From Chitinophaga niabensis (GTDB lineage: Bacteria > Bacteroidota > Bacteroidia > Chitinophagales > Chitinophagaceae): a stretch of 34,217 nucleotides of DNA. The position numbers and the translations under genes are program-made. Each line of letters starts with the position of its first letter. The stretch's first letter is position 1. The stretch is taken from positions 1 through 34,217 of the forward strand of contig JAFIGY010000001.1 in NCBI GenBank assembly GCA_017849435.1, written 5' to 3'. The notes under the pieces are model-generated. The model had not been told where the DNA came from. It saw only the letters and a program-made list of their open reading frames with translations, and made no database searches. Shown here in pieces: positions 9,115 to 25,809 of the stretch.

Positions 9115-9156
9115 AAAAAACCCTCACCCCAACAACCCTAATTGTTAGGATGAGGG
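9115..9156 (-). terminator. Intrinsic terminator ending the his-trp supraoperon
   Basis: On the minus strand a 14-bp stem (12 of 14 paired; arms at 9143-9156 and 9121-9134, loop of 8) is followed by UUUUUU (plus A run 9115-9120). It begins 26 bases after the stop codon of the last tlpA gene. It is the first strong terminator met after the trp leader and so probably ends the long biosynthetic transcript. Confidence 0.8.
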
Positions 9157-9182
9157 CCTCAACCCCAGGCTCGGGGGAAATA

Positions 9183-10298
9183 TCATTTCAACAACTCCGC
9201 CAGCTTCGCATCCAGCGCCTCGGCGCGGAGATTCTTCGCCACGATCTTCCCCTGCGGGTCCAGCAGCACATTTTGCGGAATGGCACGGATACCATAGAGC
9301 TTCCCTACTTCATTGCTCCAACCTTTAAGATCGGACACGTGCGTCCAGGCAAGACCATCCTGCTGAATGGCCTGCTCCCATTTTTCTTTCTTCTCGTCGA
9401 AAGAAACACCGAGAATAGTAAATCCTTTGTCTTTATACTTATTGTAAGCCTTTACCACATTGGGATTCTCCGCTCTGCAAGGACCGCACCAGCTGGCCCA
9501 GAAATCGACCAGCACATATTTTCCGCGGAAAGAAGAAAGACTCACAGGTTTGCCGGATGCATCATTTTGACTGAATTCAATAGCAGGATTGCCCACAGTG
9601 AGTTTCTTCGCGATCTCGAGACGTTCCGCAAACTGTTTCCCGGAAGGATAACGGCGGATCTTTTTGGGCAGGGATTTGAAAATGGGCTCAATGTCGGTCG
9701 CATTCAGTTCGTATCCCGCCACCTGATTGAGCAGGTACATGCCGATGGGCGTAGAAGGATTGTCTGTGAGGTATTTGCGGATAACGGCGGTACGACTGGC
9801 ATCCACTTCGTCCATGCGGGTTTCCGCTTTCTTTTGCGCAGCCTCATCTTTGGCTTCCGCTGCTTTGCGGTAATCCCTGATCAGGTCATCCATCTCTTTG
9901 GAGAAGGGCTTTGTGAGTGCATTCAACTGGTTGAAGGCATCCTGTTCCTTTGTGCCTTCAGCGGTGCCTTTCAGAAAAACATCCGTGATCGCTACTTTAG
10001 TAGTGCCTTTACCGAGGAAAAGGGATGTTGCTTCCTTCTTGCCAGGTGCCGCAGTCACCAACTGGGCGATCTGGGGCTCAGGAACCTTTCCGTCAAAGCT
10101 GAATTTGCCGTCTGTAGTAACGGCGCTGTCTGTAATGGTCTTCCCATCTATTCTGTAACGGAGATAAAACTTAGCCGGTTGTTCCTGTCTGGCTACGCTT
10201 CCTTCGATGTGAAAGGGAACTTTATGCCCCTTCTTCTCCTGCGCAAACAGGGCCGCAGCCGGACTGAAAAGTACCGCTGCAACAATTAATCTCTTCAT
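9183..10298 (-). CDS. TlpA-family thiol-disulfide oxidoreductase (distal copy)
   Basis: This is an exported thioredoxin-fold protein of the DUF4369-TlpA type common in Bacteroidota. I take the ATG at 10298 (371 residues, MKRLIVAAVLFSPAAALFAQ signal peptide); the 20 extra residues of the longer frame to 10358 would place a signal peptide internally. A DUF4369-like beta domain spans about 30-110, a helical linker follows to about 235, and the C-terminal thioredoxin domain has VDFWASWCGPCRAENPNVV (Cys at about 271 and 274) and the cis-proline motif AIPQN. It should act in the periplasm as a disulfide reductant; partners are unknown. It follows its paralogue by 72 bases and is the last gene before the terminator. 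A 59-base block around CGPC is almost identical to the paralogue. Confidence 0.85.
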   Translation of the reverse strand: MKRLIVAAVLFSPAAALFAQEKKGHKVPFHIEGSVARQEQPAKFYLRYRIDGKTITDSAVTTDGKFSFDGKVPEPQIAQLVTAAPGKKEATSLFLGKGTTKVAITDVFLKGTAEGTKEQDAFNQLNALTKPFSKEMDDLIRDYRKAAEAKDEAAQKKAETRMDEVDASRTAVIRKYLTDNPSTPIGMYLLNQVAGYELNATDIEPIFKSLPKKIRRYPSGKQFAERLEIAKKLTVGNPAIEFSQNDASGKPVSLSSFRGKYVLVDFWASWCGPCRAENPNVVKAYNKYKDKGFTILGVSFDEKKEKWEQAIQQDGLAWTHVSDLKGWSNEVGKLYGIRAIPQNVLLDPQGKIVAKNLRAEALDAKLAELLK

Positions 10299-10370
10299 GT
10301 GCCTGTTTAGATTAGTTTCAACAAAATTGGAGATTCCATAAAGGAAAAGCAACCCCAAATTGATAAGCGG

Positions 10371-11462
10371 TTATTGCAATACCTCCACCAGCTTTTGCTC
10401 CAGCTGTTCCCCACGGAGATTACTGCCGATGACCTTTCCGGAAGGATCGATCAGGAAATTCTGCGGAATGCCGGTTACGCCGTACAGCCTGGCCGCTTCG
10501 TTGGCCCAGCCTTTGAGATCGGATACGTGCGTCCAGGTAAGTTTATCTTGTGTGATGGCCTCCAGCCAGTCTCTCCGGTTTTTGTCGAGGGACACTCCAA
10601 GAACGGTGAAGTTCTTGTCTTTGAATTTTTTATAAGTGGCCACTACGTTCGGGTTCTCGGCCCGGCAGGGACCGCACCAGCTGGCCCAGAAATCGACCAG
10701 CACATATTTCCCGCGGAAAGAAGAAAGCTTTACGGATTTGCCATCCGGGTCTTTCTGCTCAAAATCTATCGCCAGCCCTTCATCCGTCATCCCTTTCGTC
10801 ATTTCTGCCATTTGCGCAGCCATGGCTTTTCCCAGCCTCGTATTCCTCACAGCGGCATCCAGGGATTTGTAAAGACTGCCCAGTTCCACCGGTGAAATGC
10901 GGTTCTGCAATTCCCCCACCAGCAGGAAGAGGCTGGCCTGGGCTTTGGGATGGGTTTTGATAAACGACTGACCTGTTTTCACCACTTCGTTCCCAAAGGC
11001 TTCCGCTTTCACCCTGAACGCAGCTTTCGCCGCTTCATCGTCCGCGGATATTTTTGCCGCTTCTTCGTTGAGCGCCACTACCTTATCAAACACGGGTTTC
11101 ATGGCCAGATGATATTCCTGCATCCATTTCGTTTGCTGACCACCTTTGGTGATATGAGCGACGGGAAAACGGTTCATGTCGCTTTCGAGGACGATCTCGC
11201 TGTTATCCGCCACCAGCAGCATCGGGAATCGACGGCCGGACAGGAACAGCGCGAACATGTCATCCGCTGCAGGTTTCAACCTGGTGGAAAAAGAGAACGC
11301 CCCTCCTTTCATGGTCACGGAATCGCGGGTATTGCCGTCTTCACTCACAAAATGGATCACCTGGCCTTCCGGTGCACCGGTGATCCTGCCACTCACTTTC
11401 AGCTGCGCCTGTGTTGTTACCGTTACGAAACAAGCAGCCAGAATCGATACAAACTTTTTCAT
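10371..11462 (-). CDS. TlpA-family thiol-disulfide oxidoreductase (proximal copy)
   Basis: This 363-residue protein has a signal peptide (MKKFVSILAACFVTVTTQAQ), a DUF4369-like N-terminal domain (VSGRITGAPEGQVIHFVS onwards), a charged helical middle and a C-terminal thioredoxin domain with WCGPC (Cys263, Cys266) and the cis-proline motif GIPQN. It is predicted to be a periplasmic thiol-disulfide oxidoreductase and is a tandem paralogue of the next gene. Its ATG overlaps the TGA of hisIE (ATGA at 11459-11462), so its translation is coupled to a cytoplasmic histidine enzyme, an odd pairing with no obvious metabolic logic. It may simply exploit a constitutively needed transcript. Confidence 0.85.
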   Translation of the reverse strand: MKKFVSILAACFVTVTTQAQLKVSGRITGAPEGQVIHFVSEDGNTRDSVTMKGGAFSFSTRLKPAADDMFALFLSGRRFPMLLVADNSEIVLESDMNRFPVAHITKGGQQTKWMQEYHLAMKPVFDKVVALNEEAAKISADDEAAKAAFRVKAEAFGNEVVKTGQSFIKTHPKAQASLFLLVGELQNRISPVELGSLYKSLDAAVRNTRLGKAMAAQMAEMTKGMTDEGLAIDFEQKDPDGKSVKLSSFRGKYVLVDFWASWCGPCRAENPNVVATYKKFKDKNFTVLGVSLDKNRRDWLEAITQDKLTWTHVSDLKGWANEAARLYGVTGIPQNFLIDPSGKVIGSNLRGEQLEQKLVEVLQ

Positions 11463-12061
11463 TTATGCCGGTCTTTTAAGATAGTCACCACATCGTCCAA
11501 TGTAAAATCCTTGGCCTGCAGGAGAATAAGATAATGAAACAGCAGGTCCGCTGCTTCATTCAAAAACAGGTCCTTATTATCATCTTTCGCTTCAATCACC
11601 AGCTCCACGGCCTCTTCTCCCACTTTCTGCGCCACTTTATTGATGCCTTTCGCGAACAGCGAAGCAGTGTAGGATTTCTCCGTTGGGTTTTCCCTGCGCT
11701 GCCGTATCACCTGCTCCAGTGTGGCCAGGAAAGCATGCGTATCCTTGTTCTGCTCGTTCCAGCAGGTATCCGCTCCTGTATGACAAACGGGACCAGCCGG
11801 ATGTACTTTCAGCAGAAGCGTATCCTGATCGCAATCCACAGCAGCATGTTGCAGGTGCAGAAAATTCCCGCTCTCCTCTCCTTTTGTCCATAGTCTGTTC
11901 TTCGAACGGCTGAAGAAAGTTACCTTTCCCTCCGCCAGCGTTTTATCCAGCGCTTCCCGGTTCATGTAACCCAGCATCAACACCTTGTTGGTGATAGCAT
12001 CCTGGATGATGGCGGGTACCAGGCCGTCAGGGGACTTTGAAAAATTTACCTGCATCTGCAA
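11459..12061 (-). CDS. hisIE: HisIE: phosphoribosyl-AMP cyclohydrolase / phosphoribosyl-ATP pyrophosphatase
   Basis: This bifunctional cytoplasmic enzyme performs steps 2 and 3 of histidine synthesis: PR-ATP to PR-AMP (HisE), then ring opening to ProFAR (HisI). The 200 residues show HisI first, with FFSRSKNRLWTKGEESGNFL, the metal-binding DCDQD and the cysteines of GPVCHTGADTCW. HisE follows, with KSYTASLFAKGINKVAQKVG and EEAVELVIEAKDD. The length fits the fused form. A second ATG two codons downstream (MQMQ) could also be the start. It lies 27 bases after hisF and overlaps tlpA by 4 bases. Confidence 0.95.
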   Translation of the reverse strand: MQMQVNFSKSPDGLVPAIIQDAITNKVLMLGYMNREALDKTLAEGKVTFFSRSKNRLWTKGEESGNFLHLQHAAVDCDQDTLLLKVHPAGPVCHTGADTCWNEQNKDTHAFLATLEQVIRQRRENPTEKSYTASLFAKGINKVAQKVGEEAVELVIEAKDDNKDLFLNEAADLLFHYLILLQAKDFTLDDVVTILKDRHK

Positions 12062-12088
12062 AACACTTTAAATATAAAAAATAATTAT

Positions 12089-12844
12089 CTAAAATCTAAT
12101 TTGTATTCCTCTCTGGTAGAGGTAGTTTTTTAATTCCGGAATGCCGATCTCCTTGTAATGGAAGATGCTGGCGGCCAGCGCGGCATCCGCATGCGCCTTT
12201 TCAAAAACATCGGCAAAATGCTCCATCGTACCGGCTCCACCGGATGCGATCACCGGTACGTGCAGGTCCTGCGACAAGCGGGAGGTGATATCCAGTGCAA
12301 AGCCTTGTTTGGTGCCATCGTTATTCATGGAGGTGAGCAATATCTCACCTGCTCCGCGATCCACCGCTTCCTTTGCCCAGTCCACCGTACGGGTATCCGT
12401 TTTCACACGGCCGCCGTTCAGGTACACATACCAGTCACCATCCTCAAACCGCGTATCGATGGCGAGCACGATGCACTGGCTGCCGAACTCGCGGGAAAGC
12501 GAATTGAGCAGACCCGGGTCCCTGAATGCCGCAGTGTTCACAGAAACCTTATCTGCACCGGCGTTGAGCAGTACGTTCACATCCTCCACAGAGGCAATAC
12601 CGCCGCCAACCGTGAAGGGGATATTAACGTGACGGGCAATGCGGGTGACCAGCTCGGAAAGGGTCTTTCTTCGTTCATTCGTTGCCGTTATATCCAGGAA
12701 TACCAGCTCATCCGCACCCTGTTGCGCATACAATGCTCCCAGTTCTATCGGGTCTCCGGCATCGCGGATGTTCTCGAAATTCACGCCCTTTACAGTGCGT
12801 CCGTCCTTAATATCCAGGCAGGGTATGATCCGTTTTGTCAGCAT
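12089..12844 (-). CDS. hisF: HisF: imidazole glycerol phosphate synthase, cyclase subunit
   Basis: This TIM-barrel subunit uses ammonia delivered from HisH to convert PRFAR into imidazole glycerol phosphate and AICAR. Its 251 residues match the usual length. The catalytic aspartates are visible as D11 ([15 protein letters not shown]) and D130 ([10 protein letters not shown]). Phosphate-binding loops FTVGGGI and VIASGGAG and the motif [15 protein letters not shown] are present. Its start touches the stop of the GNAT-HisA gene at 12844. It works as a heterodimer with the product of hisH, two genes upstream. Confidence 0.97.
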
Positions 12845-13983
12845 TATAAAAATTTCTTTAGTTCGTTCAGGGTGATACGTCCTTCGTAAATGGCTTTGCC
12901 GATGATCACACCGGCGAGGCCTGCGGCCTGCAGCTCCTCCACGTCACCGATATGGCTGACCCCGCCGCTGGCAGTGAGCCGGAGGCCGGGGAGCGCTTCC
13001 AGTATCTTGCGGTAGAGCGCGGTGGAAGGGCCCTGCAATAGTCCGTCTTTCGCAATATCTGTACAGAAAACTTCTTTTACGCCATGTGCAAGATGATTGC
13101 GCAGGAAATCGTAGATGCTGAGTTCGGTGGTTTCCAGCCATCCGCCTACGGCAATCTTTTCTTCTTTTACATCCGCACCGAGAAACATCCTGCCTGCTCC
13201 ATACTGTCGTAACCAGCTGTGAAATAGTTCAGGTTGCTTTACAGCTACGCTTCCGATGGTGGCCAAGGCCGCGCCGGATTGGAATACGATCTCCACATCC
13301 GCGCCGCTTTTGATCCCACCGCCAAAATCTATGACCAGTCCGGTTTTACCGGCGATGGTCTCCAGTACTTTCCAGTTCACCACGGCACCTTTCTTTGCTC
13401 CGTCCAGGTCAACGAGGTGCAGGCGCTTTACGCCATTATCCTCGAACTCCTTTGCTACTTCCAGCGGATGCTCGTTATATACTTTCTGCTGCGCATAATC
13501 GCCCTGTGTGAGGCGTACGCATTTCCCCCCGATGATGTCGATAGCGGGGATGATGCTGAAGCTTTGTGCCGCGGGGGCGTCAAGGCCGATATCCATTTTA
13601 TAGTAGGTTACATCTTCTATGTAAAACAATTCGCTTCTTCTCGCAAAGCCGAGCTCCAGGTAGAACGTTTCCGCCGTGCTGCGCGCATTGCACCAAAGGC
13701 GCCGTACGCCTTTATGACGGCAAACATCCATGATATGCTGCAGGAGTTTCCGCGCATATCCTTTTCCCCGATGATGCGGTGCTGTAGCCAGTTTCCGGAA
13801 CTGCGCAGCGTCTCCTGTGATGAACAGGGAAACAACTGTGGCCAGTTCCCGGCCTTCATATACGCCGAAGTGAATGCCCTCCGCATCATGATCCATCCTC
13901 ATTTCGTGGATGCCCTTTTGCGGATAGAGTACATCCCGGCGCAAGGGCAATGTATCTTCTGTGATGATATTCCTGATCTGCAC
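12844..13983 (-). CDS. hisA: GNAT acetyltransferase-HisA fusion (ProFAR isomerase)
   Basis: A single 379-residue frame holds two domains. Residues 1 to about 130 form a GNAT N-acetyltransferase domain: [20 protein letters not shown] with acetyl-CoA-binding R72-G-K-G75, then [16 protein letters not shown]. Residues about 142-379 are a full HisA barrel: [20 protein letters not shown] (catalytic Asp about 149), [24 protein letters not shown] (Asp about 271), [14 protein letters not shown] and TASGGVS. HisA isomerises ProFAR to PRFAR in histidine synthesis. The linker [12 protein letters not shown] is in frame with no stop. An internal ATG at residue 130 (13594-13596) could also yield stand-alone HisA. 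The GNAT substrate is unknown. The gene starts 2 bases after hisH. HisA is usually about 240 residues without this extension. Confidence 0.92.
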
Positions 13984-13985: not shown

Positions 13986-14579
13986 CTAGAGTTTCAAAAA
14001 GCTTTCAATGATCCGTTGGCCTGCTTCGGCAGACTTTTCGGGATGGAACTGCACGGCATAGAAATTATCTTTCTGCAGGGCAGCGCTATAGTTGATCACA
14101 TAATTGGCGATAGCCGTGGTTTCTGCGCCCAGCGCGGCATAGTAGCTGTGCACAAAATACATGTAAGCATTCTGCGGCACATGTTCGAAGATGACGCTGT
14201 GCAAACCGGTGATGTTGTTCCAGCCGATCTGCGGGATCTTCAGCAGGTTCTCCACAGGCGATTCAAACTTCTTCACGGGGAGATCAAAAATGCCAATGCA
14301 GTCGGTATTGTTCTCCTCGGAATGTTTGCAAAGCAGCTGCATCCCCAGGCAAATACCCAGCACGGGCTGCTGCAGATCCCGGATGAGCCGGTCCAGCTTA
14401 CGTTCCCGCAGGTATTGCATAGCTGTGCTGGCTTCTCCCACCCCGGGAAAGATCACTTTGTCCGCGGATATCAGCGTTTCCGGATCGTCCGTCACGGTCG
14501 CTTCCACGCCCAGGCGTTCCAGGGCGAAGAGCACGGAGCGGATATTACCGGCGTTGTATTTGATGATGGCTGTTTTCAT
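13986..14579 (-). CDS. hisH: HisH: imidazole glycerol phosphate synthase, glutaminase subunit
   Basis: This class I glutamine amidotransferase (197 residues) supplies ammonia to HisF. The catalytic triad is visible: Cys77 in LGICLGMQLL, and His179 and Glu181 in VQFHPEKS. The oxyanion region VIFPGVGEAS is present. Its ATG overlaps the TGA of trpA by 4 bases (14576-14579), so the histidine half of the operon is translationally coupled to the last trp gene. This tight junction shows that the trp and his genes form one transcription unit and are not merely neighbours. Confidence 0.96.
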   Translation of the reverse strand: MKTAIIKYNAGNIRSVLFALERLGVEATVTDDPETLISADKVIFPGVGEASTAMQYLRERKLDRLIRDLQQPVLGICLGMQLLCKHSEENNTDCIGIFDLPVKKFESPVENLLKIPQIGWNNITGLHSVIFEHVPQNAYMYFVHSYYAALGAETTAIANYVINYSAALQKDNFYAVQFHPEKSAEAGQRIIESFLKL

Positions 14580-15346
14580 GCTTTGATCTTTTCTACGAAC
14601 TCCTGGATCGTCTGCTGCAAGTTAGCACTGTTTTCAATGGCTTTCACAAAAGCGCTGCCGATAATGGCGCCGTTGCTATGTGCGCAGGCGGCTTCAAAAG
14701 TGGCTTTATCCCTGATCCCGAACCCGATCAGCACGGGATTCTTCAGCTTCATGGCCTGCAACCGGGCGAAATAAGCCTGCTGCCCGCTCATGTCTTTGTC
14801 CTTGCCCGTGGTGGACGAAGAGGAAACTGCGTATACAAATCCTTTACTAAGACTGTCGATCTTCCGGATGCGGGCCTCGCTGGTTTCCGGCGTTACCAGG
14901 AAAATGAAATGCAATCCGTATTTATCGAAGATCTGCCTGTATTCGTTTTCATATTCATCCATGGGCAGATCCGGCAGGATGAGGCCGTCGATGCCGGTTT
15001 CCGCGCATTTTTTACAAAACTCCTCCACCCCGAACTGCAATACAGGGTTCAGATATCCCATCAACACAACAGGGAGGGACACCCGCTCCCGGAATCCTTT
15101 CAGTTGCTCGAACAACACGCTGATGCGCATGCCATTGGCGATGGCGCGGGTGCTGCTGTCCTGGATCACAGGACCGTCCGCAAGGGGATCGGAGAAAGGC
15201 ATGCCCAGCTCCACCATGTCCGCGCCGCTTTTCTGCAGCGTTTCCACGATTGTGAGGGTGTCGTTAAGTGCGGGAAACCCGGCTGTGCAGTATATGTTGA
15301 GTATATGTCCCGGTTTATCCCGGAATAACTGGTCGATGCGGTTCAT
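14576..15346 (-). CDS. trpA: TrpA: tryptophan synthase alpha subunit
   Basis: This TIM-barrel subunit cleaves indole-3-glycerol phosphate to indole and glyceraldehyde 3-phosphate and channels indole to TrpB. Its 256 residues match the family. The catalytic residues are Glu46 (DMVELGMPFSDPLADGP) and Asp57. The flexible loop with VSSSSTTGKDK and the phosphate-binding IGFGIRDKAT are present. It starts 5 bases after trpB and overlaps hisH by 4 bases. Confidence 0.97.
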   Translation of the reverse strand: MNRIDQLFRDKPGHILNIYCTAGFPALNDTLTIVETLQKSGADMVELGMPFSDPLADGPVIQDSSTRAIANGMRISVLFEQLKGFRERVSLPVVLMGYLNPVLQFGVEEFCKKCAETGIDGLILPDLPMDEYENEYRQIFDKYGLHFIFLVTPETSEARIRKIDSLSKGFVYAVSSSSTTGKDKDMSGQQAYFARLQAMKLKNPVLIGFGIRDKATFEAACAHSNGAIIGSAFVKAIENSANLQQTIQEFVEKIKA

Positions 15347-15351: not shown

Positions 15352-16557
15352 TTACTTTAAATGTTTGATATAGGTTTCCATATCCTTATCCCCCCTCCCG
15401 CTTAAACATACCACCACTACCTGGCCCGGTTGCAGGGAAAGGTCTTTCAGCTTAGCGATGGCGTGAGCGGATTCCAGCGCAGGGATGATGCCTTCCAGCC
15501 GGCTGAGTTCGTACGCAGCTTCGAGGGCTTCATCGTCCGTAGCGCTGAGGAATGTAGCGCGACCGGTTTCAAACAGATGCGCATGCAGCGGGCCAACCCC
15601 GGGATAATCGAGGCCGGCGGAAATGGAATGCGGTTCTACGATCTGTCCGTCTTCTGTTTGCATCAGCAGCGTTTTACTGGCATGGATTACCCCCATCCTG
15701 CCCAGCTGTGAGGTGGCGGCGGAATATCCGCTGTGCACGCCTTTACCAGCCGCCTCTACCGCTATCAGCCGCACATCCTCCTCATCCACGAAGTGGAAAA
15801 AAGTACCGGCCGCATTGCTGCCTCCGCCTACGCAGGCCATCACGTAATCCGGGTTGCTTTTCCCGGTTTTCTCTTTCAACTGTCTGCGGATCTCTTCGCT
15901 GATCACGGATTGGAAACGCGCCACCATATCCGGGTAGGGATGCGGACCTACCACGGAACCGATGATATAATGCGTATCCACAGGATTGTTAATCCAGTCG
16001 CGGATCGCTTCATTGGTAGCATCTTTTAGCGTTTTGCTGCCGCTGGTGGCCGGCACCACGGTTGCGCCCAGCATTTTCATACGGGCCACGTTGGGCGCCT
16101 GGCGCTGGATATCCACGCTGCCCATATACACCACGCATTCCATACCCATCAGCGCGCAGACGGTGGCAGTGGCTACGCCGTGCTGCCCCGCGCCTGTTTC
16201 AGCGATGATGCGTTTTTTACCGAGACGTTTGGCCAGCAGTATCTGGCCGATCGTATTGTTGATCTTATGCGCACCGGTATGATTGAGGTCTTCCCGCTTC
16301 AGATAAATGTCAACACCGTATTTTTCAGACAGGCGTTTGGCCAGATATAAAGGAGAAGGCCGCCCTACGTAATCCTTCAGCAATTGCTCGAATGCTGACA
16401 GAAAAGCCGGATCGCGCATGATCTCCAGGTACTTCTCCTGCAGTTCCGCTACATTCGGATAGAGCATTTCAGGGATGTAAGCGCCCCCGAAATGGCCATA
16501 GTAACCCTTCTTATTGACGTGATATTTGGAATGAGATGTATCGATGGTAATATCCAT
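15352..16557 (-). CDS. trpB: TrpB: tryptophan synthase beta subunit
   Basis: This PLP enzyme condenses indole with serine to give tryptophan. It has 401 residues, the usual size. The PLP lysine is Lys98 in [15 protein letters not shown]. The substrate loop [14 protein letters not shown] and the PLP phosphate loop [12 protein letters not shown] are intact. The N-terminal [12 protein letters not shown] is typical of the canonical TrpB1 type that pairs with TrpA. It lies 14 bases after trpF and 5 before trpA. Confidence 0.98.
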
Positions 16558-16571: not shown

Positions 16572-17195
16572 TTAACTGTTCTTTTTAATTGCTTTGATGA
16601 ACTCCTCCACCTTCAGCATATCTTTCACCCCCGGCGAAACCTCGAACCGGCTGTTGACATCCAGTGCGAACAACCGTTCGTGCCGCCACCGCTCAAAACC
16701 GGCAGCATCATCCGGGCCGATCCCGCCACTGAGGAAGAAAGGAACATCCTCACGGTAATCTTTCAGCAGCTCCCAATTGAACTGCCGGCCGGTACCGCCG
16801 TAAGCCTTATCGGCCGTATCAAAAAGGAAATAATCGCTGTTCTTCAGGTAGGGTTTTATCTTCCCATATCCCTTATCATCCACATGAAAAACCTTTATAA
16901 CGGGAACGGACAAACGTAATTTTCCGCATATCTCCGGCGATTCTTCTCCATGCAATTGCACCATATCCAGTCCGTAATCCCTGACGGTCTGCAATATCTG
17001 CTGTACGTCCGCATTCACGAATACGCCCACTTTCCCGATATGCCGGCCTGTTTCCCGTACCGTGCGCCCGTCCAGCCTGTTACCGGCGAAGCGGGGCGAC
17101 TTCCCGTAAAAAATGAAGCCTGCATAATCCGCGCCCAGCTGTACCAGCGCATCCAGATCATCGGCCCTGGTGATGCCACATACTTTTATCTTCAT
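16572..17195 (-). CDS. trpF: TrpF: phosphoribosylanthranilate isomerase
   Basis: This barrel enzyme performs the Amadori rearrangement of phosphoribosylanthranilate to CdRP, the reaction chemically parallel to that of HisA, encoded in the same operon. Its 207 residues carry Cys6 in [19 protein letters not shown], Asp126 in [23 protein letters not shown] and [16 protein letters not shown]. It overlaps trpC by 4 bases (17192-17195). It is a separate gene here, not fused to trpC as in enteric bacteria. Confidence 0.95.
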
Positions 17196-17999: not shown

Positions 18000-18992
18000 T
18001 TATTGTAATGCGATCAGTTTTTGGAAAGATTTGTAAGCGGCGCCGGATTCCAGCGATTCCACGGCCGCCTGGAAACACGCGTCATACGTCGGGTATTTCT
18101 CAAGGCAATACAATCCCATGGCGGCGTTGGCCATCACTACGGAATGCTGGGCCCAGGTCCCCTCTCCCTTCAGCACCTTCACGAATATCTTCGCGGCATC
18201 TTCCGGGGAATTACCGCCGTAAATGTCCTCTGCATGCACTTTCCGCTTGCCGAGCGCTTCGGGCGTCCAGTCCTGCTCGCCTTCATTAGTGATGATGCGG
18301 GTATCTCCGGTGAGGGAGATCTCGTCATATCCGTCCAGGCCATGCACGATAGCGAATTTCTTATCCGTTTGCTGGAAAAGATAGTTATAAATCCGCGCCA
18401 TTTCAAGGCTGTACACGCCGATCAGCTGATGATCCGCAAAAGCGGGGTTTACCAGCGGGCCCAGCATGTTGAAGAACGTGCGCACGCCCAGCTGGCGGCG
18501 AACGGAGGCTACATTCTTCAGTGCCGGATGAAAGAGCGGAGCATGCAGGAAGCAGATCCCCGCTTCTTCGATCTCCTGTTTCAGCTTGCCGGTATCGTTC
18601 TTGAACTTGTATCCTACGGACTCCATCACATTGGATGCGCCACTGATCGAAGAAACGCCGTAGTTCCCGTGTTTGGCTACCTTGCCACCCGCGCCTGCCA
18701 CGATGAAGCAGGACAGTGTGGAGATGTTGAAAGTGTTCTTGCCATCGCCGCCGGTACCTACAATGTCCAGCACCTTATGCCCGTTCAGGTCCACCGGTAC
18801 GCAGAGTTCCAGCAGTGCATCCCGGAAGCCGAGCAGCTCTTCAATGGTGATGCTGCGCATCAGGAAAACCGTCATGAATGCAGCCAGTTCGCTTTCGTTG
18901 TAGACGCCTTTGGAAATGCTGGTTAGGATCTCTTTGGCCGCTTCCCGACTGAAGGATTTATGTTCGAAAAGGTAGTTTAATATCTTCTTCAT
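18000..18992 (-). CDS. trpD: TrpD: anthranilate phosphoribosyltransferase
   Basis: This enzyme transfers ribose phosphate from PRPP to anthranilate. The 330 residues include the PRPP loop GTGGDGKNTFNIST (79 onward), KHGNYGVSSISGASNVME and VRRQLGVRTFFNMLGPLVNP. PRPP is also the substrate of HisG, so both pathways in this transcript draw on one metabolite. It is stand-alone and not fused to the glutaminase. It lies 19 bases after trpG and 4 before trpC. Confidence 0.97.
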   Translation of the reverse strand: MKKILNYLFEHKSFSREAAKEILTSISKGVYNESELAAFMTVFLMRSITIEELLGFRDALLELCVPVDLNGHKVLDIVGTGGDGKNTFNISTLSCFIVAGAGGKVAKHGNYGVSSISGASNVMESVGYKFKNDTGKLKQEIEEAGICFLHAPLFHPALKNVASVRRQLGVRTFFNMLGPLVNPAFADHQLIGVYSLEMARIYNYLFQQTDKKFAIVHGLDGYDEISLTGDTRIITNEGEQDWTPEALGKRKVHAEDIYGGNSPEDAAKIFVKVLKGEGTWAQHSVVMANAAMGLYCLEKYPTYDACFQAAVESLESGAAYKSFQKLIALQ

Positions 18993-19011: not shown

Positions 19012-19581
19012 TTAAAGCGCTAACCAGTTACGCAGGATGGCTTCTCCCTGCGGCGTAAGCACACTTTCCGGGTGAAACTGTACGCCGCTGACATCATACT
19101 TCTTATGCTGCAATGCCATGATATAGCCGTTACTGTCCCGCGCCGTTACTTCCAGTTCGGCGGGAAGCGTTTTCTCGTCTACTACCCAGGAATGATAGCG
19201 CCCTACTTCCAGCTGATCCGGCAGATTGTTGAACAAACGGCCGCTGCGGGAAGTGATACTAACGGGGGTGGCTACACCGTGATACACTTCTTTCAGATTG
19301 ATCAGCTTTGCCCCGAAAGCCTCGCCGATGGCCTGCTGGCCAAGACATACACCAAAGATCGATTTGGTGGCGGCATATTGTTTGATCAGCGGGAGCAGGA
19401 GGCCTGCTTCCTCAGGGATACCGGGGCCGGGTGACAGGATGATCTTGTCAAACGGCGCCACGTCTTCCATTTTAATTTCATCATTCCGCACCACCGTTAC
19501 CTTTCCGCCGATGATCTTCTCCACGAGGTGTACGAGGTTATAAGTAAATGAATCGTAATTGTCAAACACCAGGATATTCAT
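19012..19581 (-). CDS. trpG: TrpG: anthranilate synthase, glutaminase component
   Basis: This class I amidotransferase (189 residues) provides ammonia to TrpE. The triad is Cys79 (FGVCLGQQAIGEAFG), His170 and Glu172 (VQFHPESVLTPQG). The N-terminal VFDNYDSFTYNLVHLVE and ILSPGPGIPEEAG are classic for TrpG/PabA. PabA-type proteins look alike, and it may also serve p-aminobenzoate synthesis; the trpE neighbour supports the Trp role. It starts 1 base after the trpE stop. Confidence 0.94.
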   Translation of the reverse strand: MNILVFDNYDSFTYNLVHLVEKIIGGKVTVVRNDEIKMEDVAPFDKIILSPGPGIPEEAGLLLPLIKQYAATKSIFGVCLGQQAIGEAFGAKLINLKEVYHGVATPVSITSRSGRLFNNLPDQLEVGRYHSWVVDEKTLPAELEVTARDSNGYIMALQHKKYDVSGVQFHPESVLTPQGEAILRNWLAL

Positions 19582-19582: not shown

Positions 19583-20992
19583 TCAGATATTTTGCGCCAG
19601 GATAATGGCCTGTTTTAATGCGTTTAGTTTGTTGTTCACTTCATCCAATTCGGAACTGGCCACTGATTTCGCTACGATCCCGGCCCCTGCCTGATAGTAC
19701 AGGGTGTTGTTCCTGCTCAGGAGAGAACGGATCATGATAGCGTGATTGAAATTGCCATTGAATCCCACAAAGCCCACACATCCGCCGTAGAACCCACGTG
19801 CCGTGGGTTCGTTCGTATCGATCAGCTCCATGGCCTTGTATTTGGGCGCTCCGGAAAGGGTGCCTGCGGGGAAAGTGGCGGCCAGGATGTCAAAAGGACT
19901 GCTGCCATCGTGCAATTTGCCGGTCACTTCGCTCACCAGGTGGATCACGTGGGAGTAATATTTGATCTGGCGGTAGGTTTCTACCTGTACGTTTTTCGCA
20001 TAACGACTGAGGTCGTTCCGGGCCAGATCTACCAGCATCACATGTTCTGCGTTCTCTTTCGGGTCTTCCAGCAGGCGGGCGGCAAGCTCCTTGTCCTGCT
20101 CATCATTTCCCGTGCGCCGGAAAGTGCCGGCGATCGGGTGTATCACGGCTTTACCGTCTTTGATGATCAGCTGTGCTTCCGGGGAAGAGCCCATCAGTTT
20201 ATAATCGCCGTAATCGAAATAAAAAAGGTAAGGAGAGGGATTGATAGAGCGGAGAGCGCGATAAACATTGAACTCATCACCGGAAAAGCTGCGCTGGAAG
20301 GCGCGGGAAAGCACGATCTGAAAAACGTCTCCGCGGAAGCAGTGCTGTTTACCTTTTTCCACCATCTCCATATAAGCCGCATCCGTCATATTGCTTTCTT
20401 CTTCGCCCTTAACAGTGAAGGGATAGCTGGGGAAATCCTTGTTGCGGATCAGCGACTCCACAAAGTCGAACTCACTTTCCTGTCCATCTGCAAGGTTTTC
20501 TATCAGGTGCATTTCATCTTTAAAATGATTGATGGCGATCACGTATTGATAAAAGCGGTAGCGCATCAGCGGGATCGTGTTCCCGGTTTTAGGGCGTTTC
20601 CTGAACGCGATTTTCTCGAAGAACTGCACGGAGTCGTAAGTACTGTATCCGAAAAGCCCTTCGGCAAAGGGTACCGGTGATTTCTCGCTGAATGAAAAAC
20701 TTTGCAGGAAAGCGTCCATTTCCTTCAATACCTCCTGGCGGCTTTTCAGTTGCTTGTGCTCAACGGGCTGACCGGGATATTTGAATTCAAAAACATCCGT
20801 GGAGGTCACTTCAATTCCCGCGACGGGCTTGATGCCGATGAAGGAAAAGCTGTTCTCTCCGGCATGGGAGTCCGTACTTTCCAGGAGAATGGAACCCGGG
20901 AATTTATCCCGGATGCGGAGATAGATGCTCACCGGGGTGAATACATCCGCCAGCATTTGTTTGGATCGTGTTTTTACCTGAACTTTTTTCAT
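19583..20992 (-). CDS. trpE: TrpE: anthranilate synthase component I
   Basis: This 469-residue enzyme makes anthranilate from chorismate and is the first committed step of tryptophan synthesis. The LLEST motif at 36-40 matches the tryptophan feedback site of TrpE proteins, suggesting allosteric inhibition by Trp. The chorismate-binding domain is complete: YKLMGSSPEAQL, HPIAGTFRRTG, EHVMLVDLARNDLSRYAKNV, AGTLSGAPKYKAMELI and GGCVGFVGFNGN. It is the first structural trp gene, and its start lies 37 bases after the attenuator hairpin. Confidence 0.96.
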   Translation of the reverse strand: MKKVQVKTRSKQMLADVFTPVSIYLRIRDKFPGSILLESTDSHAGENSFSFIGIKPVAGIEVTSTDVFEFKYPGQPVEHKQLKSRQEVLKEMDAFLQSFSFSEKSPVPFAEGLFGYSTYDSVQFFEKIAFRKRPKTGNTIPLMRYRFYQYVIAINHFKDEMHLIENLADGQESEFDFVESLIRNKDFPSYPFTVKGEEESNMTDAAYMEMVEKGKQHCFRGDVFQIVLSRAFQRSFSGDEFNVYRALRSINPSPYLFYFDYGDYKLMGSSPEAQLIIKDGKAVIHPIAGTFRRTGNDEQDKELAARLLEDPKENAEHVMLVDLARNDLSRYAKNVQVETYRQIKYYSHVIHLVSEVTGKLHDGSSPFDILAATFPAGTLSGAPKYKAMELIDTNEPTARGFYGGCVGFVGFNGNFNHAIMIRSLLSRNNTLYYQAGAGIVAKSVASSELDEVNNKLNALKQAIILAQNI

Positions 20993-21029: not shown

Positions 21030-21059
21030 AGAAGGCCCGCTGTGTACAGCGAGCCTTCT
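21030..21059 (-). terminator. trp attenuator terminator hairpin
   Basis: In the transcript AGAAGGCUCGCUG pairs with CAGCGGGCCUUCU (13 pairs, one G-U) around a UACA loop, followed by UCGUUUU. It lies between trpL and trpE. The leader segment at 21082-21099 (CCGCUGUGUAACAGUGCC) can instead pair across both terminator arms (21037-21055): ten contiguous pairs (CCGCUGUGUA with UACACAGCGG) and then a further imperfect helix. This alternative would destroy the terminator and act as antiterminator. The trpL stop codon falls in the middle of the antiterminator strand, so a ribosome that finishes the peptide would mask it. Confidence 0.8.
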
Positions 21060-21088: not shown

Positions 21089-21148
21089 TTACACAGCGGA
21101 AAGACCTTGTGCGTGCCACCAATGTTTGTATGTAAAATTCTTTTGCAT
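21089..21148 (-). CDS. trpL: trp operon leader peptide (TrpL)
   Basis: This 19-codon ORF reads MQKNFTYKHWWHAQGLSAV and ends in TAA. Tandem TGG codons occupy positions 10-11, strikingly enriched for so short an ORF upstream of trpE. It lies between hisB (stop 57 bases upstream) and the attenuator hairpin. By the classical attenuation model, scarcity of charged tRNA-Trp stalls the ribosome at the tandem Trp codons and leaves the downstream segment at 21082-21099 free to pair with the terminator, so trpE and all later genes are transcribed. When Trp is ample the ribosome reaches the stop and termination follows. The peptide itself probably has no function. Confidence 0.85.
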   Translation of the reverse strand: MQKNFTYKHWWHAQGLSAV

Positions 21149-21156
21149 TGCGAAAG

Positions 21157-21188
21157 CAAATATGGGGTGATTTCTCCAGAAATGCAAA
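21157..21188 (-). promoter_or_regulatory. Possible internal trp promoter
   Basis: The minus strand has TTTG (21185-21188), a 20-base spacer and CATATTTG (21157-21164), one mismatch from the Bacteroidota TAnnTTTG element. A start here would leave almost no untranslated leader before trpL, which weakens the call. If real, it would let the trp genes be transcribed independently of the his promoter. Confidence 0.3.
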
Positions 21189-21205: not shown

Positions 21206-22339
21206 TCACAGCACCCCTTTTGTACTTGGCAGTTGCATGTTCTCCGGATTGCGCTTCACGGCCATTTTCACAGCTTTTGCAAAGGCTTTGAAGATGGCTT
21301 CGATCTTGTGGTGTTCGTTCTCTCCTTCCGCCTTGATGTTCAGATTACACCGGGCCGCGTCGGAAAAGGACTTGAAGAAATGGAAGAACATTTCCGTTGG
21401 CATCTCCCCGATCTTCTCCCGCTTGAATTCCGCATCCCAAACGATCCAGTTCCGGCCTCCGAAATCAATGGCCACCCGGGCGAGACAGTCGTCCATCGGC
21501 AGGCAGAAGCCATAGCGCTCCATGCCCTTTTTATCGGCCAGTCCCATCGCAAAGGCCTCTCCCAGCGCAATACCGGTGTCTTCGATAGTGTGATGCTCAT
21601 CGATATGAAGATCTCCTTTGGCGGTAATGGCCAGGTCGATGCTGCCGTGGCGGGCGATCTGGTCCAGCATATGATCGAAAAAGCCGAGGCCGGTATGGAT
21701 GCTGGCTTTGCCGGTACCGTCCAGGTTCAGGTCTATTTTGATATCGGTTTCTTTGGTGGTGCGGGTATGGCTGACCTTACGAAGCCCGATCTTCAGGAAC
21801 TCGTAAATCCTCTCCCAGTCTGTGCTTTCCAGTGCAATCACATCCTCCAGGCTGTCCTGATCCGTTACTTCCGCGGCGCCAAGCGCAGTGCCTTCGTTAA
21901 GCCAGATGGCTTTGGCGCCAAGGTTCCGGGCCAGTTTCACATCCGTGATCCGGTCGCCGATGACGAAGGAATGCTGCAGATCGTATTCCGGGGAAAAGTA
22001 CTTTGTAAGCATGCCGGTGCCGGGTTTGCGGGTAGGTGCATTGTCCGCCGGAAAGCTCCGGTCGATATACACGGCTGCAAACTTTATCCCTTCATTCTCG
22101 AAGGACTGCATGATATGCCGGTGCGGGGCGATGAAGGTTTCTTCGGGAAAGGACGCTGTACCAAGCCCGTCCTGATTGGTCACCATCACCAGCTCATAAT
22201 CCAGTTCCGCGGCTATTTTCCCGAGCCAGGTGAAAACCTTCGGATAGAATTCCACTTTCTCCAGGCTGTCGATCTGGTAAGTGGGCGGTACTTCTTTGAT
22301 CAGTGTTCCGTCCCGGTCAATGAATAATACTCTCTTCAT
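21206..22339 (-). CDS. hisB: HisB: histidinol-phosphatase / imidazoleglycerol-phosphate dehydratase
   Basis: This bifunctional 377-residue enzyme has an N-terminal HAD phosphatase ([11 protein letters not shown] with Asp8 and Asp10, [27 protein letters not shown]) and a C-terminal dehydratase from about residue 186 ([53 protein letters not shown]). It catalyses steps 6 and 8 of histidine synthesis. The zinc-binding Cys/His loop of the E. coli phosphatase domain is absent; the equivalent region reads [20 protein letters not shown]. It overlaps hisC by 4 bases. In a normal his operon hisH would follow; here the trp leader does. Confidence 0.95.
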
Positions 22340-23403
22340 AACGTCATATTTTTCAAAGCGTTCAGCAATGTGATGTTTTCTTCAGGCGTGCCAATGGTGA
22401 TACGCAGGCATCCGGCGCAAAGCTCCACCCTGGAACGGTCCCGCACGATGATCCCCTGTTCCACCAGTTTGTTATAGATCCCTTTGGCATCCACGGTTTT
22501 CACCAGCAAAAAGTTCGCATCGCTGGGATATACCTGTTGCACGATGGGCAGCTGTTGTAAAGTCTGTTCCAGCTTTCCGCGCTCCTGCACGGTTTCCCTG
22601 ATCCAGCCATTCACCTGATCGATGTTATTCAGGGCTTCCAGCGCCAGCTCCTGCGATGCCTGGTTGATATTGTACGGCGGTTTGATCTTGTTGAAGATAT
22701 CGATGATATCCTCGCCCGCAAAAGCCATCCCTACCCGCAAAGCCGCCAGCCCCCATGCTTTGGAGAGCGTTTGCAGGATCACGAGATTCGGGTATTCGGT
22801 CAGTTCCTGTATGAGCGTTTTCTGCCGGGAAAAGTTGATATAAGCTTCATCCACCACCACGATCCCTTCAAAATTATTCAGGATCACTTCGATATCTTCT
22901 TTCCGGATGGCGTTGGCGGTGGGGTTATTGGGCGAACAGATGAAGATCAGTTTGGTATTCTCATCGATCGCTGCCTGTATGGCATCGAGATCCAGCTGAA
23001 AATCCGCCGTGAGTGTGGCTTTTCGCACGGTCACATCGTTGATGTTGGCACTCACTTCGTACATGCCATAGGTAGGCGGGCATAACACTACATTGTCGAT
23101 GCCCGGCCGGCAGAACGCGCGGAAAAGGATATCGATGGCTTCATCACTGCCATTACCGAGGAAAATATTCTGCGGCGGTACGCCCTTGATATCCGCAAGG
23201 CGGTATTTTACTTTCCACTGCAAGGGATCCGGATAGCGATGATAGGCCCTGGGCAAGGGAGAGCCGAAGCTGTTCTCATTGGCGTCCAGGAATATGGAGG
23301 CTTCGCCTTTGAACTCGTCGCGGGCGGAGGAGTAAGGAACGAGGCGTTTGATATTGTCTCTTAAAAGATTATTCAGATCGAACATCGGATGTTGAATTGT
23401 CAA
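22336..23403 (-). CDS. hisC: HisC: histidinol-phosphate aminotransferase
   Basis: This class II PLP aminotransferase (355 residues) converts imidazole acetol phosphate to histidinol phosphate. [51 protein letters not shown] and the PLP lysine Lys215 in [14 protein letters not shown] are clear, and so is the C-terminal [10 protein letters not shown]. The start may instead be the ATG at codon 7 ([11 protein letters not shown]). It lies 79 bases after the hisD stop, the only sizeable gap between his genes here, and that gap is filled by an AT-rich repeat. Confidence 0.95.
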
Positions 23404-23475: not shown

Positions 23476-23482
23476 CATTGCT

Positions 23483-24760
23483 TTATCCCTTCACTCTAAT
23501 GGCCACGGCATTTCTGTGCGCTTCCAGCCCTTCTGCGCCGGCCATGGCCTCGATTGCGGGGGCGAGGGCCTGCAGGCCTTCTCTGGTGAGCCGCTGGAAG
23601 GTGATCTTTTTCACGAAGCTGTCTACGCTTACGCCGCTGTAAGCGGTGGCATAGCCGTTCGTAGGCAGCGTGTGATTGGTACCGGAAGCGTAATCTCCGG
23701 CGCTTTCCGGGGAGTAATTGCCGAGGAAAACGGAGCCGGCGTTGATAACCCTGGTGGCGAGGGCTTCATCGTTCTCACAAGCCATGATCAAATGCTCAGG
23801 CGCATATTCATTGAGCATGTCCATGGCTTCGTCCCGGTCTTTTACCAGGATGAGCTTGCTGTGTTCCAGTGCTTTCGCGGCGAGGGCCACTCTCGGCAGC
23901 TTCGCAAGCTGTTCGTTCACGGCCTGCTCTACGGCGGCGATCACCTGTTCCGAAGTGCTGACCAGCAACACCTGACTGTCTACCCCATGCTCCGCCTGCG
24001 ACAACAAATCCGCCGCCACAAAGTCCGGCACACAGGAATCATCCGCAAAAACGGCTACTTCAGAAGGTCCGGCCGGCATATCGATAGCCACACCATTGCT
24101 GTTCACCAGCTGTTTGGCGCAGGTCACGTACTGGTTACCCGGCCCAAAGATCTTATAGACTTTCGGCACACTTTCCGTTCCGTAGGCCATCGCTCCGATC
24201 GCCTGAACACCGCCGACTTTAAATACCTGCGTGATACCTGTGTACTGCGCCGCCCAAAGTACGGCCGGCGGTAAAAGGCCGTCCCTGCCCGGGGGCGTGC
24301 ACAGCACGATCTCGCTGCAGCCCGCCAGTCTGGCCGGAATGGCCAGCATGAGGATGGTAGAGAACAAGGGCGCCGTTCCGCCGGGAATATACAATCCCAC
24401 TTTGTCGATAGCCACCGGTTTACGCCAGCATTGCACGCCGGGCATGGTTTCTATCATCGTCACCGGCTCCAGCTGTGCCCGGTGGAACACTTCAATATTG
24501 GCGGCAGCCTGCCTGATAGCATCTTTGAGAGCGGCATCCAGTACACCGTCCGCCTGCGCAAATTCTTTGGGAGTAACGCGTATATCCGTTAACGTTACCG
24601 CATCGAATTTCGCTGTGTATTTGTACAAAGCTGCATCACCGGTCGCTTTCACATCAGCAAGCACGGCGGACACGGTGGCTTCCAGCTGTCGGGTATCCAG
24701 CATCGGGCGTTGCAGCAATGTTTTCCATGTATTTCTTTCCGGATAGCGGATGATCTGCAT
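23483..24760 (-). CDS. hisD: HisD: histidinol dehydrogenase
   Basis: This zinc- and NAD-dependent enzyme oxidises histidinol to histidine, the last step. I choose the ATG at 24760 (425 residues, MQIIRYPERNTWKTLLQRP) over the longer frame to 24817, because the extra residues overlap hisG and are unlike the family. Motifs include VGLYIPGGTAPLFSTILMLA, GVQAIGAMAYGTESVPKV, IFGPGNQYVTCAKQ, DMPAGPSEVAVFAD, the zinc region LLSQAEHGVDSQ and the catalytic NEYAPEHL. It starts 10 bases after the hisG stop. Confidence 0.96.
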   Translation of the reverse strand: MQIIRYPERNTWKTLLQRPMLDTRQLEATVSAVLADVKATGDAALYKYTAKFDAVTLTDIRVTPKEFAQADGVLDAALKDAIRQAAANIEVFHRAQLEPVTMIETMPGVQCWRKPVAIDKVGLYIPGGTAPLFSTILMLAIPARLAGCSEIVLCTPPGRDGLLPPAVLWAAQYTGITQVFKVGGVQAIGAMAYGTESVPKVYKIFGPGNQYVTCAKQLVNSNGVAIDMPAGPSEVAVFADDSCVPDFVAADLLSQAEHGVDSQVLLVSTSEQVIAAVEQAVNEQLAKLPRVALAAKALEHSKLILVKDRDEAMDMLNEYAPEHLIMACENDEALATRVINAGSVFLGNYSPESAGDYASGTNHTLPTNGYATAYSGVSVDSFVKKITFQRLTREGLQALAPAIEAMAGAEGLEAHRNAVAIRVKG

Positions 24761-24770
24761 AAATCTCTTT

Positions 24771-25625
24771 TTAAACAACCATTTTTTCGATCGGAACCAC
24801 CAGTATGCCTTGTGCACCGGCGGCTTTCAGACTTTCGATGATATCCCAGAAATCATTTTCATTCAGTACGGAGTGCACAGAACTCCATCCGGCTTCGGCG
24901 AGGGGCAGTACGGTAGGACTTTTCATCCCCGGCAACAGCCCGATGATCTCCGGCAGCTTGTCATTCGGGGCGTTTAGCAGGATGTATTTGTTGTTCTTTG
25001 CTTTCTTCACCGCCTGTATGCGGAACACCAGTTTATTCAGCAACTGCTGCTGTTCCGGTGTAAGATTACCGCTGCACACCAGTACTGCTTCGGAGCGCAG
25101 CACGGTCTCCACCTCCTTCAATCCGTTCATAAACAGGGTGGAACCGCTGCTCACCAGGTCGCAGATAGCATCTGCCAGACCAATCCCCGGTGCAATCTCC
25201 ACGGAACCGCTGATCTCATGGATCTCCGCCTGGATGTTGTTCTTCTGCAGGAAATCATTCACGATCACGGGATAGCTGGTAGCGATGCGTTGCCCTTGCA
25301 GGTCCTGCACGGAATTGTACTGCACGGCCCTTGGCACGGCCATGGCTAAACGACATTTGCCAAATCCCAGTTTTTCCACGGTCTGCAGGGGACGTTTCTT
25401 TTCCAATACCACATTCTCGCCTACAATACCGATGTCTGCCACCCGGTCTTCCACATATTGCGGAATATCGTCGTCCCGGAGGAAAAATACTTCCAGCGGG
25501 AAGTTGGAGGCTTCTGTTTTGAGTTTGTTGACGCCGTTATTGATATCTATCCCGCATTCCTTGAGCAGTTTGATAGAATCTTCGTGCAGGCGGCCCGATT
25601 TCTGAATAGCGATGCGTAATTTCAT
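24771..25625 (-). CDS. hisG: HisG: ATP phosphoribosyltransferase, long form
   Basis: The first enzyme of histidine synthesis joins ATP and PRPP. The 284-residue length and the C-terminal domain (KYILLNAPNDKLPEIIGLLP, then GWSSVHSVLNENDFWDIIE) mark the long HisG_L type, whose C-terminal domain binds histidine for feedback inhibition and which does not need HisZ. The PRPP-binding loop SGSVEIAPGIGLADAICDLV is present, as is the N-terminal RIAIQKSGRLHEDS. It is the first structural gene after the his leader; its start lies 21 bases after the attenuator stem. Confidence 0.97.
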   Translation of the reverse strand: MKLRIAIQKSGRLHEDSIKLLKECGIDINNGVNKLKTEASNFPLEVFFLRDDDIPQYVEDRVADIGIVGENVVLEKKRPLQTVEKLGFGKCRLAMAVPRAVQYNSVQDLQGQRIATSYPVIVNDFLQKNNIQAEIHEISGSVEIAPGIGLADAICDLVSSGSTLFMNGLKEVETVLRSEAVLVCSGNLTPEQQQLLNKLVFRIQAVKKAKNNKYILLNAPNDKLPEIIGLLPGMKSPTVLPLAEAGWSSVHSVLNENDFWDIIESLKAAGAQGILVVPIEKMVV

Positions 25626-25643
25626 TTGTAGCTGTTTTGAAAC

Positions 25644-25675
25644 AAAAAAGGCTTACCGGGATGCGGTAAGCCTTT
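25644..25675 (-). terminator. his attenuator terminator hairpin
   Basis: The transcript forms a perfect 12-bp stem (AAAGGCUUACCG with CGGUAAGCCUUU, loop CAUCC) followed by more U residues (plus A run from 25644). Four competing segments are visible: 1 CUUACC (25725-25730), 2 CGGUAGGC (25713-25720), 3 GGCUUACCG (25664-25672) and 4 CGGUAAGCC (25650-25658). Segments 1:2 and 3:4 form in one state and 2:3 in the other (8 pairs, one G-U). Segment 1 begins 2 bases after the last His codon of hisL, the classical layout. Confidence 0.88.
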
Positions 25676-25698
25676 GATGGTAAATATCTGTGTATACA

Positions 25699-25764
25699 TT
25701 ACAGCATCTCCTGCCTACCGGTTGGGTAAGTATGGTGATGATGGGTATGTACGTTGATGATCAT
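25699..25764 (-). CDS. hisL: his operon leader peptide (HisL)
   Basis: This 21-codon ORF begins MIINVHTHHHHTYPTG and ends RQEML before TAA. Five of the six codons at positions 6-11 are His. It lies 73 bases upstream of hisG and directly precedes the attenuator hairpin. A ribosome stalled at the His codons would cover segment 1 and allow the antiterminator (2:3), switching on hisG and the genes behind it. With His plentiful, the ribosome moves to the stop, covers segment 2, and the terminator forms. The peptide is expected to have no other role. Confidence 0.92.
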   Translation of the reverse strand: MIINVHTHHHHTYPTGRQEML

Positions 25765-25779
25765 AATTAAATTCCGGTG

Positions 25780-25809
25780 CAAAAATAGGAAGTAATCCGA
25801 ATAATCAAA
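25780..25809 (-). promoter_or_regulatory. Candidate his operon promoter
   Basis: The minus strand has TTTG (25806-25809), an 18-base spacer and TATTTTTG (25780-25787), an exact match to the Bacteroidota -7 consensus TAnnTTTG. It predicts a transcript start about 10 bases before hisL. No gene lies between here and the TonB-type gene stop at 25887. That gap also holds an inverted repeat CCCCGTTTT/AAACCGGGG (25827-25835, 25852-25860), possibly a weak terminator for the upstream gene although it lacks a U run. Confidence 0.55.

Follow-up and report, generated by a model that had tools for sequence, protein, structure and literature searches.

We analyzed a 34,217-nucleotide (nt) stretch of DNA from Chitinophaga niabensis, hereafter the window, which is one whole contig (JAFIGY010000001.1) of the 5.0 Mb assembly GCA_017849435.1 and carries tryptophan (trp) biosynthesis genes nested among histidine (his) biosynthesis genes. 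The order on the minus strand is hisGDCB, a trp leader, trpEGDCFBA, hisHAFIE and two tlpA-like genes, that is, hisGDC(N)B followed by the trp genes and then hisHAFIE on a single strand, as a first-pass annotation of this DNA had read it and as profile matches now bear out. All 15 biosynthetic genes were named by NCBIfam models, 13 of them above the curated cut-off; trpE and trpF had the trpE and trpF models as their best matches, with scores below the model cut-offs. The source genome yielded one trpB match above the family cut-off and one HisB match. Of particular interest here is the trp leader between hisB and trpE, the peptide of which holds His codons next to its Trp codons; the evidence presented below points to a regulatory adaptation, in place of the metabolic rationale offered by the first-pass annotation (use of phosphoribosyl pyrophosphate by both pathways and the parallel isomerases HisA and TrpF). 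The features are, in the direction of transcription:

25780..25809, minus strand: promoter-like element of the his unit (TTTG, 18 nt, TATTTTTG; pattern score 10/10)
25699..25764, minus strand: his leader peptide MIINVHTHHHHTYPTGRQEML with a run of His, encoded by an open reading frame (ORF) upstream of hisG
25647..25675, minus strand: his attenuator terminator hairpin, 12 pairs plus a T tail (leader-region fold z -4.71)
24771..25625, minus strand: hisG (TIGR00070)
23483..24817, minus strand: hisD (TIGR00069)
22336..23403, minus strand: hisC (TIGR01141)
21206..22339, minus strand: hisB (hisNB), bifunctional (NF003937)
21157..21188, minus strand: promoter-like element of the trp unit (TTTG, 20 nt, CATATTTG; pattern score 9/10)
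21089..21148, minus strand: trp leader peptide MQKNFTYKHWWHAQGLSAV, encoded by an ORF in the hisB-trpE gap
21113..21124, minus strand: regulatory codons His-Trp-Trp-His (CAT TGG TGG CAC), where the leader peptide reads KHWWHA
21030..21059, minus strand: trp attenuator terminator hairpin AGAAGGCTCGCTG-TACA-CAGCGGGCCTTCT, 13 pairs (leader-region fold z -6.65 against shuffles)
19583..20992, minus strand: trpE (best model TIGR00564, below cut-off)
19012..19581, minus strand: trpG (TIGR00566)
18000..18992, minus strand: trpD (TIGR01245)
17192..17995, minus strand: trpC (NF001377)
16572..17195, minus strand: trpF (best model NF002298, below cut-off)
15352..16557, minus strand: trpB (TIGR00263)
14576..15346, minus strand: trpA (TIGR00262)
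13986..14579, minus strand: hisH, with a 4-nt ATGA overlap with trpA (TIGR01855)
12844..13983, minus strand: GNAT acetyltransferase domain fused to HisA (TIGR00007 at residues 144-374; PF00583 at residues 21-113)
12089..12844, minus strand: hisF (TIGR00735)
11459..12061, minus strand: hisIE (NF002747)
10371..11462, minus strand: tlpA-like gene 1 (DUF4369 + AhpC/TSA, domain matches)
9183..10358, minus strand: tlpA-like gene 2 (DUF4369 + AhpC/TSA, domain matches)

The 213-nt gap between hisB and trpE holds the trp leader ORF and a strong hairpin terminator, which upholds the trp leader of the first-pass annotation; the his leader with its terminator, the promoter-like elements before both leaders and the GNAT-HisA fusion were absent from that annotation. 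The gap thus contains what is expected of a leader-peptide attenuator, namely a short ORF with regulatory codons 5′ of the first gene and an intrinsic terminator between leader and trpE, and, as in a leader that reads two amino acids, codons for both Trp and His occupy the stalling zone. A generic scan of the window found promoters and terminators at the frequency of shuffled sequence (12 sigma-70 promoters against a mean of 15.8; 20 terminators against 19.3), and while it picked up the terminator of the his leader it missed that of the trp leader; terminators were therefore assessed from their folds and from their recurrence in other genomes. By this measure a terminator lay between leader and trpE in 99/100 leaders of the family, as opposed to 1/100 when shuffled, and in 39/46 upstream regions of hisG across the family. 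The Bacteroidota promoter consensus is TTTG-n19-TAnnTTTG. Scored against this consensus, 36 of the 42 leaders from nested or hisB-trpE-adjacent loci had a pattern of 9 or 10 out of 10 (mean 8.9, against 6.5 for shuffles), as did 17/23 and 19/23 leaders in the other two arrangements. The second promoter box lay 12-20 nt ahead of the ATG that starts the trp leader in 35/42 nested or adjacent loci, and likewise in the window (21148-21188, with the box at 21157-21164 and the ATG at 21148); ribosomes may thus read the trp leader peptide from RNA with hardly any 5′ leader.

A candidate antiterminator strand, one able to pair with the 5′ arm of the terminator, followed the Trp run in 95/99 leaders. 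Its score exceeded the mean of the leader's own 40 shuffles in 94/99, and in 77/99 no more than 5% of shuffles reached it. In the 81 leaders with a helix score of at least 14, the median distance to the start of this strand, counted from the first base of the codon that follows the Trp run, was 14 nt (5-95%: 11-17). The footprint of a stalled ribosome extends about 12-14 nt beyond its A site, so that the codon after the Trp run would be about the last stall position leaving the strand free. In the window the complementary strand lies further along (ACAGTG with CGCTGT, 26 nt away, score 13.8).

Distribution of the nested gene order

HisB, TrpE and HisA were sought in 147 Chitinophagaceae genomes, and arrangements were classified by coordinates. 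The three genes stood in line (nested) in 32 genomes, 31 besides the window, and all 31 regions fetched from the other nested genomes had the trp genes between hisB and hisH; because 31 other genomes share this alignment, chance is not an issue for the nested order. In 11 genomes hisB preceded trpE by at most 6 kb with hisA out of line (ten with the genes on different contigs or hisA not found, and G067 with hisA far away), and in 26 genomes hisA came after trpE but no hisB lay within 6 kb upstream, hisB being located elsewhere or going undetected, contig ends leaving about three of these open. The classical order, hisB directly before hisH/hisA, was seen in 32 genomes, another arrangement in 17, and none of the three hits above the cuts in 29. 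The arrangement for which the first-pass annotation had proposed a comparison across the family is thus common. Extra sequence is common at the hisB-trpE junction, the gap being shorter than 500 nt in 14 of the 32 nested genomes and 773-2983 nt in the other 18. In a 107-genome tree, linkage (hisH downstream of the trp leader) prevails through the greater part of the core clade, which includes several lineages that lack it; the basal branches are all unlinked. The his-trp link therefore looks old in Chitinophagaceae and repeatedly lost, with nine changes by parsimony. The nearest named record, uncultured Chitinophaga L194 (TrpE 81% identical), is nested too, although the search may omit records very near the window. 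Outside the family, trp genes followed by hisHAFIE were found in Carboxylicivirga and Cecembia.

Additional genes stood at two junctions in other genomes. Relatives carry some 1.8-2.3 kb between hisC and hisB; in L034, L044 and L057 this stretch encodes, as judged by eye from translations, a beta-propeller dehydrogenase-like protein and a c-type cytochrome. In Cecembia rubra (L260, 16741-18930), two genes between trpA and hisH resemble, also by eye, phenylalanine hydroxylase and 3-deoxy-D-arabino-heptulosonate 7-phosphate (DAHP) synthase.

The first-pass annotation had described a 17-gene supraoperon, fully integrated at the trpA/hisH junction. The gene order, the single strand and the 4-base ATGA overlap at that junction all held. 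A simple 17-gene operon driven from the his promoter, with both pathways co-regulated for their demand for phosphoribosyl pyrophosphate, would fit these features together with the short gaps within the window and a trpA-hisH hit gap of at most 200 nt in 57/61 loci. Nevertheless, we regard it as improbable, given the promoter-like element, Trp leader and terminator that separate hisB from trpE, the 26 genomes in which trp and hisA lack a hisB within 6 kb upstream (about three of them left open, as above), and the hisB-trpE gaps of more than 700 nt in 18/32 nested genomes. 'Fully integrated' was accordingly too strong a term, and the supraoperon looks rather like two tandem transcription units between which read-through is possible.

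Nor is the gene order itself novel, as the first-pass annotation had held it might be. Trp genes interrupting the his operon were printed in 2021 for Thermoflavifilum thermophilum and Filimonas lacunae [PMC8305728], both of them Chitinophagaceae. Like the window, the loci in that paper have trp genes inside a his operon with short intergenic regions, and a single transcript was suggested. Its main text makes no mention of a leader, a GNAT or other acetyltransferase, tlpA or thioredoxin, and refers to attenuation once, for the general his attenuator; unlike the portions of that paper considered here, the present work gives the frequency of the arrangement in the family and ties it to the leader code. 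What is new seems to be the two-pathway leader code that accompanies the gene order.

His codons in trp leader peptides

Leaders were compared between loci with hisH downstream of the trp leader (linked) and loci without it (unlinked). TrpE was hit in 109 of the 147 Chitinophagaceae genomes and 107 trpE regions were examined, G143 and G144 being left out. Leaders were found by rule, except for those of G053, G139 and G086, which were added by hand; four of the 107 regions (G112, G013, G075 and G128) had none. Linkage was indeterminate for 16 of the 103 leaders (13 with His, 3 with Gln), and these were omitted from two-by-two tests. The codon immediately following the Trp run encoded His in 59/61 linked leaders, compared to 12/26 unlinked ones, in which the remainder encoded Gln, Leu or Ser.

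The survey was extended to 60 Marinilabiliaceae-type and 78 Cyclobacteriaceae-type genomes, so named from the loci at their centers, Carboxylicivirga and Cecembia, respectively. TrpE was matched in 128 of these genomes; with G208 and G269 (split or partial hits) omitted, 100 of 126 upstream regions were examined, made up of 60 loci and 40 picked for informative linkage, the unlinked state being partly set by hand from contig positions. Four regions (G171, G190, G191 and G200) had no leader, and 14 with indeterminate linkage, 12 of which had His, were omitted. Among Marinilabiliaceae-type leaders, His lay inside the Trp run or at most two codons from it in 25/25 linked cases versus 2/9 unlinked ones, the latter two being identical leaders. 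Linked forms were WWH, WWWRH and WHWHH (e.g., NWHWHHS, IWWWRHF), and the other unlinked forms were WWWRK (IWWWRKS), WWWRT (WWWRTS) and WWWQ. In the remaining named unlinked records, His was near the Trp run in 4/32. When all sets were pooled, His stood inside the Trp run or at most two codons from it in 104/111 linked as compared to 30/91 unlinked leaders, the linked count including as an outgroup record L214, which has the same leader as G108 and is apparently the same locus. A test of every amino acid over the two residues that follow the run found strong enrichment in linked leaders for His alone and weak enrichment for Thr (p 0.04); Ser was depleted, as were, to a lesser degree, Lys, Asn and Arg. 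In the six residues before the Trp run, His was present in 29/111 linked and 8/91 unlinked leaders.

Since related genomes share leaders by descent, an explanation in which the His codon is an inherited passenger has to be weighed: WWWH would have arisen by chance in an ancestor of the family and been kept in young lineages, with the attenuator sensing Trp only. Compatible with it are the 12/26 unlinked Chitinophagaceae lineages that kept His and the WWH or WWWH found in some unlinked outgroups (the 4/32 named records above). However, Pagel-type likelihood models on the 107-genome tree put the rate of His loss at 2.63 where the link is absent and at 0.10 where it is present (p 7.5e-5, or 3.0e-4 under full dependence), and the test on a TrpE tree of 231 loci gave p 2.2e-10, or 7.4e-5 with the Chitinophagaceae states dropped; L199 was scored as unlinked in that test and is apparently G118, where hisH lies ~7 kb beyond trpA. 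These models thus favor a His change that depends on linkage, and the differing forms of linked groups (WWWH, WWWRH and WHWHH) likewise argue against a passenger, an explanation that we consider unlikely, if less so than the simple operon.

A dependence of the His codon on hisH linkage is thus likely, not proven, and a number of observations count against it. The independent-pairs test had few informative pairs (about 1.6 favoring, 0 against and 4.4 ties; median p 0.5) and is uninformative, which suits the passenger explanation; the trees were built from trp and his proteins, which are not independent markers, and the dependence tests rest on few events. Gln follows the Trp run in 2/61 linked Chitinophagaceae leaders (G018, with hisA far away, and G078, with WWWQH). 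Taken alone, the Cyclobacteriaceae-type leaders had His in 18/24 linked against 12/24 unlinked cases (p 0.14). With 30/91 unlinked leaders also carrying it, His beside the Trp run is not diagnostic of linkage. Finally, the codons of the window leader are able to pair downstream (TGGCAC with GTGCCA).

This last point is what would be expected if the codon were kept for RNA structure, through pairing with a downstream strand, and not for its amino acid. Codon usage speaks against it. After the Trp run, linked leaders use CAT (44), CAC (13) and CAA (2), to which unlinked leaders add CAG, CTT and AGC (CAY versus CAR, linked versus unlinked, p 5e-4; Y, pyrimidine; R, purine), so that CAT and CAC both serve in linked leaders and CAA, CAG, CTT or AGC also occur in unlinked ones. 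Just 6/59 linked leaders had an exact partner downstream that spanned 5 nt or more and took in the third base; RNA pairing alone thus does not explain the pyrimidine at the third base. We hold conservation for RNA structure to be the least probable of the alternatives, and very improbable.

A predicted Trp-or-His attenuator

The reading that we favor, and deem quite likely, is that operon fusion made the trp leader a sensor of Trp or His within two attenuated transcription units in tandem. The first unit would consist of a promoter, a his leader with His codons, a terminator and hisGDCB; the second, which would begin within the gap before trpE, of its own promoter, the trp leader, a terminator and trpEGDCFBA-hisHAFIE-tlpA. 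RNA polymerase en route to hisHAFIE, whether from the trp promoter or by read-through from hisB, would have to cross the trp attenuator. If the leader held Trp codons alone, a Trp-replete cell would be unable to raise hisHAFIE upon His shortage; it is because a Trp-only attenuator would block this response that the leader is expected to carry one or more His codons beside its Trp run. A ribosome stalled for want of either charged tRNA would then free the downstream strand to form an antiterminator. Sequence and its statistics supply the gene order, leader codons, terminators, complementary strands, promoter-like elements and the dependence of the His codon on a downstream hisH. From these we infer the transcription units, the lack of a further promoter ahead of hisH, a stall at the His codons, read-through from hisB and release upon His shortage; hisHAFIE would be reached only via the trp attenuator unless an unseen, closer promoter exists. 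The his leaders offer a counterpart to this wiring, in that none of the 40 his leaders found (17 of them from linked genomes) has Trp within three residues of the His run. Such an asymmetry, his leaders without Trp and trp leaders with His, is what the wiring predicts, as the genes of the his leader do not lie behind the Trp attenuator.

On a broader scale we think it somewhat probable that fusion rewired the attenuator repeatedly, in at least two families (Chitinophagaceae and the Marinilabiliaceae-type group, possibly also Cyclobacteriaceae): with hisHAFIE placed behind trp, the leader would have become or stayed a Trp-or-His sensor (WWWH, WWWRH, WHWHH), His tending to go where the link breaks. 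If this is true, a two-pathway leader peptide made by gene order amounts to a natural and repeated experiment on how regulation tracks operon structure. Regulatory adaptation to the merging of operons is usually argued from gene order alone, whereas here the regulatory code would be readable in a peptide of ~20 residues and comparable over many lineages with or without the gene link. The case could show if gene order exerts selection on regulatory logic, and it would provide a sequence rule to predict which genes share an attenuator.

Escherichia coli has leader peptides that each read more than one amino acid, such as thrL (Thr, Ile) and ilvL (Ile, Val, Leu). The window leader resembles these in having codons of more than one amino acid within one attenuator; it differs in that theirs belong to connected pathways, while Trp and His come from separate pathways joined by gene order. 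The window leader scored far below the cut-off of the Rfam Thr_leader model (25.7 vs 55 bits), and an Rfam search of the whole window returned no match at cut-off, RF01692, RF00513 and RF00506 all having been rejected for the trp leader on their scores. RF01692, the Bacteroid-trp RNA listed in PMC2864571, resembles the window leader in being a trp peptide leader that precedes trpE in Bacteroidota. It was matched by loci of Flavobacterium frigidarium and Psychroserpens and, at cut-off, by none of the other ten loci searched, four of which were Chitinophagaceae; the window scored 23 bits against a gathering cut-off of 49 and is thus outside the family. The window leader is predicted to work like this known Bacteroidota trp leader despite lying outside its scoring. 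For Flavobacterium psychrophilum, the parts covered here of one paper report indications that amino-acid operons are attenuated through leader peptides encoded ahead of them [PMC9723704]. A joint Trp/His leader did not appear in the portions covered of PMC4833913, PMC9723704 and PMC2965389, and we recognized no description of a trp leader with His codons in the literature searched, most subscription journals lying outside its scope.

Neighboring genes

Elsewhere in the window, a 1540-residue Rhs core domain protein stands beside a 1089-residue protein without NCBIfam or Pfam match (1055-8963). Frames of 170, 263 and 256 residues without Pfam match (28902-31908) are overlapped by long frames on the opposite strand, leaving their coding strand unsettled. 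The GNAT-HisA frame is open through both parts in 7/147 genomes (G000, G006, G071, G085, G039, G003 and G119); other genomes have a separate GNAT match directly upstream of hisA, with none there in G106 of the same genus. GNAT-HisA is perhaps a repeated fusion. The tlpA-like pair 3′ of hisIE, the first member of which overlaps hisIE by 4 bases, encodes TlpA/ResA-like thioredoxin-fold proteins with an N-terminal DUF4369. TlpA-like genes, seen in L091, L111 and L247 among others as well as in the window, lie 3′ of hisIE in many linked genomes, 3′ of trpA in several unlinked ones and between trpA and hisH in Carboxylicivirga; tlpA thus seems to travel with the trp end.

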